Origin: Synechococcus sp. LA31
GTDB taxonomy: Bacteria; Cyanobacteriota; Cyanobacteriia; PCC-6307; Cyanobiaceae
DNA length: 64,000 bases
NCBI RefSeq assembly: GCF_018502385.1
Contig: NZ_CP075523.1
Location: 1,798,001 to 1,862,000, forward strand
Direction of reading: 5' to 3'
The translations under genes were made by a program, and so were the position numbers. Numbering within the stretch: position 1 is the stretch's first letter; each line of letters starts with the position of its first letter. Shown one piece after another: positions 57,763 to 60,415 of the stretch. The notes beneath the pieces are model-generated. The model did not search any database. It saw only the letters and a program-made list of their open reading frames with translations, and was not told the origin of the DNA.

Positions 57763-58929
57763 TCAGGCTGCGGATCGCAGCACGTCGACCACGCTACGGA
57801 AAGCAAACCACTCGGGGATCTCCTCGCCGCTGCGCAGCATCTTGCGGAACTGGGTGCCGCTGAGCTTCTTGACGTGCAGGCCACGGGCCTCGGCATGCTC
57901 GGCGGTCACGTAGCCCTCCTCTTCGGTGTAGACGAGGTTGAGCGACGGCACTGTCTCCATGCCGAGCTCAGGTGCGTGATCGCGGGCAAAATCCTGTGCC
58001 TGATACGGGCCGTAGAAGTCGTCGCCGCTGATGGAGCTCTTGCAGCCCGCCATGTCGCGACCAATGATGAAGTGGGTGCAGCCGTAGTTCTTGCGGATGA
58101 TCATGTGCTGCAGGGCCTCCCGGGGACCAGCCATGTGCATCGAGTAGGGCAGATACGACCAACGGATGCGGGGGTTGTTCACCTCAGCAGCCAATCGCTC
58201 GTAGGTCTGGAAGCGCACCGCACCAGGAATGTCGTCGTCCTGAGTCGGGCCGCAGGTGGGATGCACCAGCACCACGCCGTCATTGCTCACGTTGGTGGCA
58301 TCAAGGGCGCGGGTGAACAGCTCGTAGTGGGCGCGGTGGATGGGATTACGGCACTGGAAGGCCACCACGTCCTGCCCCTCTGGCAGGTTGGCGCGAACCT
58401 CGGCAGGTGTTTTGCAGGGGAACACGCGCTGGGGCAACTCCAGGCCCTGAATGGCACCACCGAGGTAGTAACGACCGCGCTCGGTGGCGATCATCTTCAC
58501 GGCGGGGTGTTCGATCGAGGAGGTGCCGTAGCAACCCACCGCCTCACGGGCCTTGTCTGGCTCCCACTTGCTCTCCACGGTCATCACCGCCAGCTCCTGG
58601 CCGCGGTAGGTGAGCAACAGCTTTTGGCCCACGGCGATGTCGTCGCGATGGGTGTCCATCACGATCGGCAGGCCAAACAGCAGGCCGCTGGTGGTGCGGT
58701 TGCTCTCCACCACCGACTGATAGTCGTCTTGGTGCATGAAGCCGCGCAGGGGCGAAAAGCCCCCCACCATCAGCAGCTCCACATCGCAAGCGTTGCGATC
58801 AGAGCACTCCACCACGTGATCAACACCGGCCTTCACGGCATCGCGCTGCTCCGCAGGCACCCGCAGGTCCACCAGGCTGCCGCCGTGAGGTGCAATCAGG
58901 CCTTGGGGGGAGGCAACGGTGCTCGTCAT
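57763..58929 (-). CDS. sat: ATP sulfurylase (sulfate adenylyltransferase)
   Basis: 388 residues, activates sulfate to APS at the entry of assimilation. Start ATG at 58929 (MTSTVASPQGLIAPHGGSLV); the upstream 45 in-frame codons are not similar and cross the 40-bp palindrome. Motifs: VAFQCRNPIHRAHYELFTRA (QxRN and HxxH), PHIG-like THFIIGRDMAGCKSS, and GTQFRKMLRSGEEIPEWF. No APS kinase domain is fused, so this is the plain enzyme. It is upstream of ftsH, 37 bases away on the same strand. Confidence 0.95.
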   Translation of the reverse strand: MTSTVASPQGLIAPHGGSLVDLRVPAEQRDAVKAGVDHVVECSDRNACDVELLMVGGFSPLRGFMHQDDYQSVVESNRTTSGLLFGLPIVMDTHRDDIAVGQKLLLTYRGQELAVMTVESKWEPDKAREAVGCYGTSSIEHPAVKMIATERGRYYLGGAIQGLELPQRVFPCKTPAEVRANLPEGQDVVAFQCRNPIHRAHYELFTRALDATNVSNDGVVLVHPTCGPTQDDDIPGAVRFQTYERLAAEVNNPRIRWSYLPYSMHMAGPREALQHMIIRKNYGCTHFIIGRDMAGCKSSISGDDFYGPYQAQDFARDHAPELGMETVPSLNLVYTEEEGYVTAEHAEARGLHVKKLSGTQFRKMLRSGEEIPEWFAFRSVVDVLRSAA

Positions 58930-59018
58930 GGCGGCGGTAGAGGCATGCGTTGGAGGGGATTCTCCCAGAGCGCGTCCTAAGGGGTACGTCAACAGCGGCA
59001 GGAACCGAAGCCAGACGC

Positions 59019-59058
59019 TGTCCCAGTCGGGATATCCATGGATATCCCGACTGGGACA
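59019..59058. repeat. Perfect 40-bp palindrome between sat and psbO
   Basis: An uninterrupted 20-bp-arm inverted repeat with no spacer, starting TGTCCCAGTCGGGATATCC and centred on CCATGG (59036-59041). It could form a cruciform or, if transcribed, a long hairpin. It lies 7 bases from the psbO terminator and 90 bases from the sat start. Confidence 0.9.
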
Positions 59059-59064
59059 AGACAC

Positions 59065-59086
59065 AAAAAAGGGGCCCTAGGGCCCC
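59065..59086 (-). terminator. Rho-independent terminator of psbO
   Basis: Minus-strand GGGGCCC-TA-GGGCCCC palindrome followed by six T, 26 bases past the psbO stop. It separates psbO from the palindrome and sat. Confidence 0.85.
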
Positions 59087-59112
59087 TGGCGATCAAGAAC
59101 GCTCGAACCGGA

Positions 59113-59934
59113 TCAAGCCTTTTCGAGACGGCCGTAGAGCTGGCCAACGATCTTCACATCGACGGGGTCATGGCTGCCCATGTCGGTGTCAGACGGCTGA
59201 ACGGCCGTGAACACGCCAGCGAATTCACCGGTGGACGCATCAACTTTGGTGATGGAGAGGTTCATCTCACCGGTGCCGTCGATGTAGCGCTTGCTGTTCT
59301 CGCGAGCCAGCTCGTCATCCTGGCCATTCAGCGCAACCAGACCTTGGGCGTACTGCACCCCGGTTGTAAGCGCACGACCCTTGGGGTCAAGGAAGTTGGA
59401 GGTGCGGTAGCTCGGCACCCGATAGGTGCCGTTCAGGTCTGTGCTGGTGGTGAGAGCAGCGCCATCAGCGGTTGCGCTGAGCTCCTTGCTCGAGAAGGTG
59501 AAAGGCACTTCCTCACCGCCGGGCAGAAGCACGGTCACGATCTGGAAGTCGATCCCGCCCTGCTCCTGGAAGTTGATGCCGTTATCGGTCACCGCCAGGT
59601 CGCCATAGACCTGGTCAAGGCTGGTGGTGAAGCGAGTGAGGATTTTGGACTCCACAAACTGCGCCTCTTGGCGCTTGTTAGCGGGTTCTCCTTTCACAAA
59701 CACCTCAGAGGGGTGCATGCAGATCTCCCGGAGCTGGTACTTGCTGCCGGCGTCCAGGCCGATCGAACCGCGAGCCGAATCGGGCAGGGTCGGGCAGTCG
59801 TTAGCCAGACCGGTGTTGTGGATGTCGTCGTAGGTGAGGTTGGCCCGATCAACAGCCTTGGCGCCGCCGCTGCAGGCGGTCACGAGGGTGAGACAAAGCG
59901 CCAGCACGAGGGCCAGCAGGGGACGGAAACGCAT
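59113..59934 (-). CDS. psbO: Photosystem II manganese-stabilizing protein
   Basis: 273-residue extrinsic subunit that stabilises the Mn cluster on the lumenal side. Start at the ATG at 59934 (MRFRPLLALVLALCLTLVTA), followed by CSGG: a signal peptide with a lipobox, so the mature protein may be lipid-anchored, as proposed for other cyanobacterial PsbO. The family sequence is clear: LTYDDIHNTGLANDCPTL, DAGSKYQLREICMHPSEVFV, GIDFQIVTVLLPGGEEVPF and LNLSITKVD-type region near the end. Cysteines CPT and EICMHP make the conserved disulfide. It has its own terminator. Confidence 0.97.
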   Translation of the reverse strand: MRFRPLLALVLALCLTLVTACSGGAKAVDRANLTYDDIHNTGLANDCPTLPDSARGSIGLDAGSKYQLREICMHPSEVFVKGEPANKRQEAQFVESKILTRFTTSLDQVYGDLAVTDNGINFQEQGGIDFQIVTVLLPGGEEVPFTFSSKELSATADGAALTTSTDLNGTYRVPSYRTSNFLDPKGRALTTGVQYAQGLVALNGQDDELARENSKRYIDGTGEMNLSITKVDASTGEFAGVFTAVQPSDTDMGSHDPVDVKIVGQLYGRLEKA

Positions 59935-60073
59935 GGGGAGAAGCCGGTCTGGCGGGGAATACCTCTGGGTGGGGGTGCGCCCGCTGCGGATACTACCGGT
60001 GCAAAAAGCCCATTCCGCGTACCATGTCGCGGCTCTCAACAACCTGTATGCGAGGGCGGCCGATTCAGAACGC

Positions 60074-60415
60074 ATGAACGAAGGCAGCAGCGATCACCGC
60101 ACCACAAACAACCTGGCCGCAGGTGACTGGGAAGCTCGCCTCAGCGAGGAGCTGCTCAGCATCCAGGCCCTGTCTGATGAGGTGGATGGTGATTCCGAGG
60201 CGCTTCTCCTGCTGTTGCGCCGCCTGGAAGAGCTGCACCGCAACATTCAAGACGGCCCCTTCCGCTCCAGCCTTCCCGCCGACCGCGGCGAGCTGTTCAA
60301 CCTGCTGCAAGGCATGGAAAAGAGCGGTGGCTGGCCCTATATCCCCCGCCTACAGCTGCGCACCTTCATGGATCTGCTGCAGAGCGGCGATTCCGGCTCA
60401 GCCCTGGCCGCCTAA
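60074..60415 (+). CDS. Conserved cyanobacterial small protein (unknown)
   Basis: 113 residues from ATG at 60074 (MNEGSSDHRTTNNLAAGDWE); in-frame upstream sequence is antisense to psbO. It is acidic and helical: EELLSIQALSDEVDGDSEAL, LRRLEELHRNIQDGPFRSSL, GELFNLLQGMEKSGGWPYIP. No recognised domain. It diverges from psbO, and its end overlaps the convergent coaBC gene by 4 bases. From memory, marine Synechococcus keep this order (sat-psbO-small protein-coaBC), supporting a real gene. Confidence 0.72.
   Translation: MNEGSSDHRTTNNLAAGDWEARLSEELLSIQALSDEVDGDSEALLLLLRRLEELHRNIQDGPFRSSLPADRGELFNLLQGMEKSGGWPYIPRLQLRTFMDLLQSGDSGSALAA

Follow-up and report, generated by a model that had tools for sequence, protein, structure and literature searches.

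Why does a perfect 40-bp palindrome lie between the psbO and sat genes of this cyanobacterium? It occupies positions 59019-59058 of the window (the whole 64-kb stretch of DNA analysed here, which is C1:1798001-1862000 of a single-contig genome of 2,752,051 bp, or 2.75 Mb) and thus C1:1857019-1857058 of the genome. As a sequence-only reading of the window had claimed, there is no mismatch and no spacer; the two 20-nt arms (59019-59038 and 59039-59058) are 100% complementary. No other palindrome in the window has arms of at least 12 nt without a spacer, and arms of at least 20 nt are expected 2.4e-7 times per window from the composition, which is indeed far beyond chance. The first tip is TGTCC (59019-59023, plus strand), followed by a free mid-arm, CAGTCG (59024-59029, plus strand; positions 6-11 of the arm). 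The centre is a conserved core, GGATATCCATGGATATCC (59030-59047), in which the self-palindrome GGATATCC occurs twice, 10 bp apart. The second mid-arm (59048-59053, plus strand) is the exact complement of the first, and the second tip is GGACA (59054-59058, plus strand). The mid-arm differs from those of the orthologous copies described below, yet it is fully paired.

The order of the features is psbO, psbO terminator, palindrome, TCTGGGAGAATC, and sat. The psbO open reading frame (59113-60075, minus strand) encodes the manganese-stabilising protein, and its intrinsic terminator (59064-59087, minus strand) has a stem at 59087-59070 and a T-run, both of which are separate from the palindrome. 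The palindrome itself is a stem without a T-run, so that it falls outside the definition of an intrinsic terminator; the sequence-only reading had rightly called it neither a standard terminator nor a part of the psbO one. The sat gene for ATP-sulfurylase (57763-58929, minus strand) has its ATG at 58929, with 89 nt between the palindrome and the start codon, in agreement with the earlier figure of about 90 bases. The 12-nt motif TCTGGGAGAATC (58969-58958, minus strand) lies 49 nt from the palindrome and is invariant in all 24 aligned genomes of the genus (the 25th gave no sat match). It is probably the -10 region of the sat promoter, of the extended -10 type. The palindrome therefore has the psbO terminator on one side and a conserved promoter-like motif on the other. 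The single strand of 59005-59095, which includes the psbO hairpin, folds with a z of -7.5, and an Rfam search of 58850-59250 with E values up to 1 gave zero matches. Cruciform extrusion by the window palindrome is possible.

Is the palindrome unique to this locus? When the half-arm was searched for with up to three mismatches, the genome gave 10 matches, six of which form three inverted pairs. A search for the core as GGATATCCRYGGATATCC with up to two mismatches found 16 copies in the same genome (a 17th match, with three mismatches, was discarded) and none with a reversed control pattern. In the genus, a group of freshwater cyanobacteria called Vulcanococcus here after the titles of named records, eight of the 25 genomes match the core with up to one mismatch, and the element is multi-copy in each of them. 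At the family level, a longer pattern, searched with a tolerance of two mismatches, was found in 13 of 400 genomes. These are the same eight genomes and five outside the genus, each of the five having one copy at maf or a maf fragment; the highest count in this search was 16 copies per genome. In a collection of named genomes, which may leave out near relatives of the window, the exact pattern was found in 22 stretches with exclusively cyanobacterial titles, namely Vulcanococcus sp. (two isolates), uncultured Synechococcus sp., and Cyanobacteria bacterium M_surface_7_m2_037. The 20-nt half-arm had no exact counterpart in viral contigs. Half-sites outside the known copies were sought with one mismatch in two genomes, and three were found in each (G000 and G002). 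In a codon tree of Sat and PolA from 19 genomes, the eight carriers form one clade with a support of 0.90; the tree omits six non-carriers of the 25 and holds partial data for G013 (no Sat) and G023 (part of PolA). Three of the carrier genomes are only 68-85% complete. The sequence-only reading had proposed a search of the genome and its relatives to tell a repeat family from a single conserved copy ahead of sat, and the many copies point to the former.

I catalogued 84 copies in 13 genomes. The catalogue is incomplete; for example, G023 has 11 copies by search versus eight catalogued, and one additional G023 copy was seen at site 17. When the copies were grouped by the similarity of their flanks, 30 sites were obtained, and 25 of them are common to at least two of the eight genomes. 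Of the 16 copies in the window's own genome, 14 are at shared sites. Thus, this is a multi-copy family, most of whose catalogued addresses are common to several genomes. Six of the 16 lie between convergent genes (infA/trxB, leuS/pgi, asparaginase/transaldolase-like, aminotransferase/2OG oxygenase, serS/mqo, and tsaE/pfkB, names that are interpretations of Pfam matches), and the neighbouring genes in this genome show no evident common theme or pathway.

At the psbO-sat address, the element is present in four of 24 genomes (G000, G013, G015, and G023) and absent in the other 20, while the promoter-like motif ahead of sat is kept in all 24. The four copies have four different arm sets and one core; the pairing is perfect over 20 pairs in three of them and over 18 in G013. 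Since three further genomes have palindromes at this address, with arms of their own, the palindrome is unlikely to be an assembly artefact. The sequence-only reading had offered a site for a dimeric regulator, a cruciform, a remnant of mobile-element termini, or a REP-like element. The REP-like or mobile-element reading is supported by the 16 copies, the clade-wide family, and the in-frame insertions missing in relatives. A conserved and specific sat operator was rejected, since the element is present at sat in 4/24 genomes and 15 further copies in the same genome adjoin diverse genes.

Most copies are intergenic, but two of the sites are inside protein genes. In an alignment of 29 Maf proteins, an extra stretch, CPxxDIHGYPxx or close to it, was found in G000, G219, G002, G068, G023, and G015, and it is missing in the other 23 (for example, G197, G124, G009, G016, and G012), some of which have unrelated additional residues in the same loop. 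The window's own maf is 36 nt longer than the genes of G124 and G009, the closest without the element. In 18 aligned PolA proteins, a related peptide lies in the linker before DTETT in G000, G002, G009, G016, and G013 and is missing in 13. Thus, Maf and the PolA linker carry an extra in-frame stretch in some genomes, and these copies appear from the alignments to be in-frame insertions missing in relatives, although non-carriers also vary in the length of this Maf loop and of the PolA linker. The boundaries of the PolA insertion are undefined because the linker is variable, and the remaining unoccupied sites align too poorly to give boundaries. Two clearly coding sites out of 30 is a minimum, as sites 23 and 24 also score high in one frame by a crude measure of the flanks and several sites have long open frames.

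The consensus of the half-arm is TGTCCAnnnYcGGATATCCA. The conservation of the core is partly by construction because the copies were found via the core. The outer CC lies outside the core used to find most copies; of the 158 half-arms of 79 copies, 155 have C at position 4 and 139 have it at position 5. Among copies with unpaired arms, 72 of 88 half-arms have CC at positions 4-5, as do 42 of 46 half-arms of fully paired copies; the full tip TGTCC is found in 34/88 versus 29/46. In G012, positions 2-4 of the tip are CAC in nine of 18 noncoding half-arms and GTC in none, while GTC or CTC prevails elsewhere. The tip sequences suggest a genome-wide shift in G012, whose copies L038, L057, and L180-L186 have CAC or GCC tips in 14 of 18 half-arms.

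How symmetrical are the other copies? I counted the pairs at the six free positions (6-11) in the 69 catalogued copies of the eight genomes outside maf and polA. The numbers of copies with zero to six pairs were 4, 10, 14, 11, 5, 2, and 23, respectively. The 23 fully paired copies compare with a shuffled-partner mean of 0.56 and a maximum of 4 in 10,000 shuffles, while 44 copies are close to random pairing. The mean was 3.46 pairs versus 2.51 when shuffled within genomes (maximum 3.14 in 5,000 shuffles). In the fully paired copies, the pairing falls to background 2-3 nt past the 20-nt arm. None of the 15 maf and polA copies is fully paired, and their mean of 1.2 of 6 is below the shuffle mean of 2.6. 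Thus, the pairing is nearly all-or-none, and some process or selection would keep about one-third of the noncoding copies fully paired.

At five sites, fully paired copies are present in two or more genomes, and the 12 resulting pairs differ at two to six of the six positions on both sides. Between genomes, fully paired copies at the same site share 2.42 of 6 positions, versus 2.43 between sites, while the identity within a genome is modestly higher (2.98 versus 2.43 of 6, P = 0.017). The arm identity at the same site was 0.40 for 12 paired-paired comparisons versus 0.51 for 37 unpaired-unpaired ones (p ~0.1, the comparisons not being independent), which is suggestive only as evidence on selection versus turnover. 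At site 10, one half-arm of the G000 copy is similar to the perfect arm found in G016, and G023 has identical arms at two addresses. Since few copies have four or five pairs, copying or re-insertion of a whole arm fits better than gradual compensation; alternatively, strong selection on one class of copies together with decay in the other could produce the pattern. I tentatively propose that an enzymatic or replicative process of this clade may rewrite the palindrome in place, so that shared addresses would receive fresh symmetric 40-bp copies with private arms while the genic copies drift. This proposal is more doubtful than not.

Features of mobility and termination were also searched for. 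The Y1/RAYT transposase family PF01797 was found in one of 25 genus genomes and in none of the eight carriers, three of which have the incomplete assemblies mentioned above. When the first 8 nt of 158 flanks were searched for tags on either strand, one contained GTAG and five contained CGTC. No clear target-site duplication was found among 79 copies. At edge 20, the only edge for which shuffles were made, there were 4, 3, 0, and 0 duplications of k = 2, 3, 4, and 5 (shuffle means 7.9, 1.4, 1.1, and 0.2) and none of k = 6-9. No parent element with matching ends was seen in two genomes, G000 and G002. T-runs (five of six T) adjoin two of 25 paired and five of 44 unpaired copies. They occur at site 18 (three of seven copies) and site 24 (two of three copies), where the palindrome looks from its sequence to have been recruited as an intrinsic terminator. 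At site 18, T-runs adjoin the stem in L081, L191, and L182; the same holds for L183 and L212 at site 24, which looks like a terminator in G015 and G012 and, in degenerate form, in G009.

Does the element belong to a known class of repeats? The Rickettsia palindromic elements (RPEs) are described as dispersed palindromes that are both intergenic and in-frame in unrelated protein genes (PMC10969869, PMC2229807). The Vulcanococcus element is likewise palindromic, dispersed, and in-frame in unrelated genes (Maf and PolA). It differs in being 40 bp long, with pairing that ends at 20-22 nt, while RPEs are given as 105-146 bp (PMC2229807). According to one of these accounts, almost half of the RPEs of R. 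conorii are inside genes (PMC10969869), unlike the at least two clearly coding sites of 30 found here, the comparison with RPEs being one by description, not by sequence. Under a broad definition, REPs are short multi-copy palindromes with a common consensus that are seldom coding and have extragenic transcription (PMC12306157), and the 16 copies of 40 bp with a consensus half-arm and at least two of 30 sites clearly coding resemble this. In contrast, membership of the tagged, RAYT-associated REPs is not supported; the GTAG/CGTC tag is a criterion of tagged REPs (PMC3733652), and the Vulcanococcus element does not show this tag, nor was a Y1/RAYT gene found in the eight carriers. The lack of an arm spacer, the at most 16 copies per genome, and the two in-frame coding sites also set it apart from REP/BIME elements. 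Bacterial MITEs, such as the cyanobacterial Nezha, are also non-autonomous, have inverted repeats, and lie near genes. MITEs are 70-300 bp long (PMC3733652), while the present element has 40 bp, no clear target-site duplication, and no parent seen in the two genomes. HIP1 is a repeated palindromic octamer of cyanobacteria, GCGATCGC; the element resembles it as a repeated palindrome in cyanobacteria and differs in sequence and length. In summary, the element is RPE-like in entering protein genes in-frame and matches the broad description of REPs, but differs in length from RPEs and lacks the tag and the RAYT association. The genome paper of Vulcanococcus limneticus, in its accessible text, reports 52 transposases and does not contain "palindrom" (PMC5902973). 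Among titles and abstract openings, with few subscription papers covered, no description of the repeat was found, and the strings DIHGYP and GGATATCCATGGATATCC were absent from the literature searched, most of it outside subscription papers.

The best-supported account, and a probable one, is that the palindrome is a copy of a short, non-autonomous, REP/RPE-like dispersed element, which would have spread when the Vulcanococcus clade of the carriers was still a single ancestor. The element may have been spread by an enzyme or by hairpin copying, and its copies would have settled where they are least harmful, at gene ends and in tolerant protein loops. They would now be mostly inherited, lost, or eroded, while some would remain, or be remade as, perfect hairpins. 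For the window copy, the role of a passenger is the most likely one, and any influence on read-through or on the local structure of the DNA would be minor. Against such an insertion family, the searches yielded neither a transposase candidate nor a clear target-site duplication nor any sign of movement, and the full pairing of one-third of the noncoding copies together with the shared addresses could reflect a function under selection. Might each copy instead be an operator or architectural site for a putative clade-specific symmetric protein that recognises the core together with the tips? The two GGATATCC sequences, separated by one helical turn, and the free positions that lie between core and tips would suit such a protein, as would the shared addresses and the CC kept in unpaired and paired half-arms alike; the CAC-for-GTC tips of G012 look as if a specificity had shifted genome-wide. 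The neighbouring genes lack a theme, two sites are inside protein genes, the addresses are patchily occupied, and TGTCC is kept less in unpaired than in paired copies. Moreover, binding alone leaves unexplained why 23 of 69 copies are fully paired at their free positions. On balance, a binding site is unlikely.

Selection for an RNA hairpin at transcript ends, as a terminator, a 3′-end stabiliser, or an insulator of convergent genes, is more unlikely still. The six own copies between convergent genes, the T-runs at sites 18 and 24, and the missing arm pairing in the maf and polA copies are in its favour. On the other hand, T-runs are rare in paired and unpaired copies, the psbO transcript should terminate ahead of the element, a terminator needs no conservation of a core sequence, and the pairing is bimodal rather than mostly four or five of six. 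The last explanation concerns upkeep and is compatible with an insertion family: perfect copies may arise from local template switching, in which the replication fork folds back at the core and one arm is copied onto the other, so that the symmetry would be a mutational by-product. The all-or-none pairing and the similar arms at site 10 agree with this, and a study of yeast genes describes such homogenisation of arms by template switching (PMC8604942). Such copying should continue beyond the element, whereas the pairing is at background within 2-3 nt. The identical arms at two G023 addresses and the 0/15 fully paired maf and polA copies, the variable PolA linker included, also speak against it, and I regard it as an improbable explanation, though less so than protein binding.

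In-frame palindromic insertions at a similar scale have been reported for Rickettsia (PMC10969869, PMC2229807). A cyanobacterial clade, with genes without the insertion and several species for comparison, allows tests of how such elements spread and are maintained beyond obligate intracellular bacteria. The all-or-none symmetry, combined with arms that are private to a species even at shared addresses, also provides a natural record for separating hairpin selection from template switching or re-insertion.

The copies cluster around maf and polA, with six of 16 at C1:42-175 kb in the window's own genome and six of 12 at C1:1031-1155 kb in G002. A link to the replication origin was dropped because dnaN lies at 2.13 Mb, away from the copies at 42-175 kb. 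In L178:2374-4943 (C1:41.9-44.4 kb of the window's own genome), a nucleotidyltransferase/HepT-like gene pair, which I interpret as MntA-like in its nucleotidyltransferase, is flanked by maf and, on its other side, a second 3′ fragment of maf. Such fragments share a contig with maf in G002, G124, G197, G208, and G219. The Maf of G219, which belongs to another genus, is 99% identical to that of the window's genome, and together these observations suggest a small island at maf and horizontal transfer.
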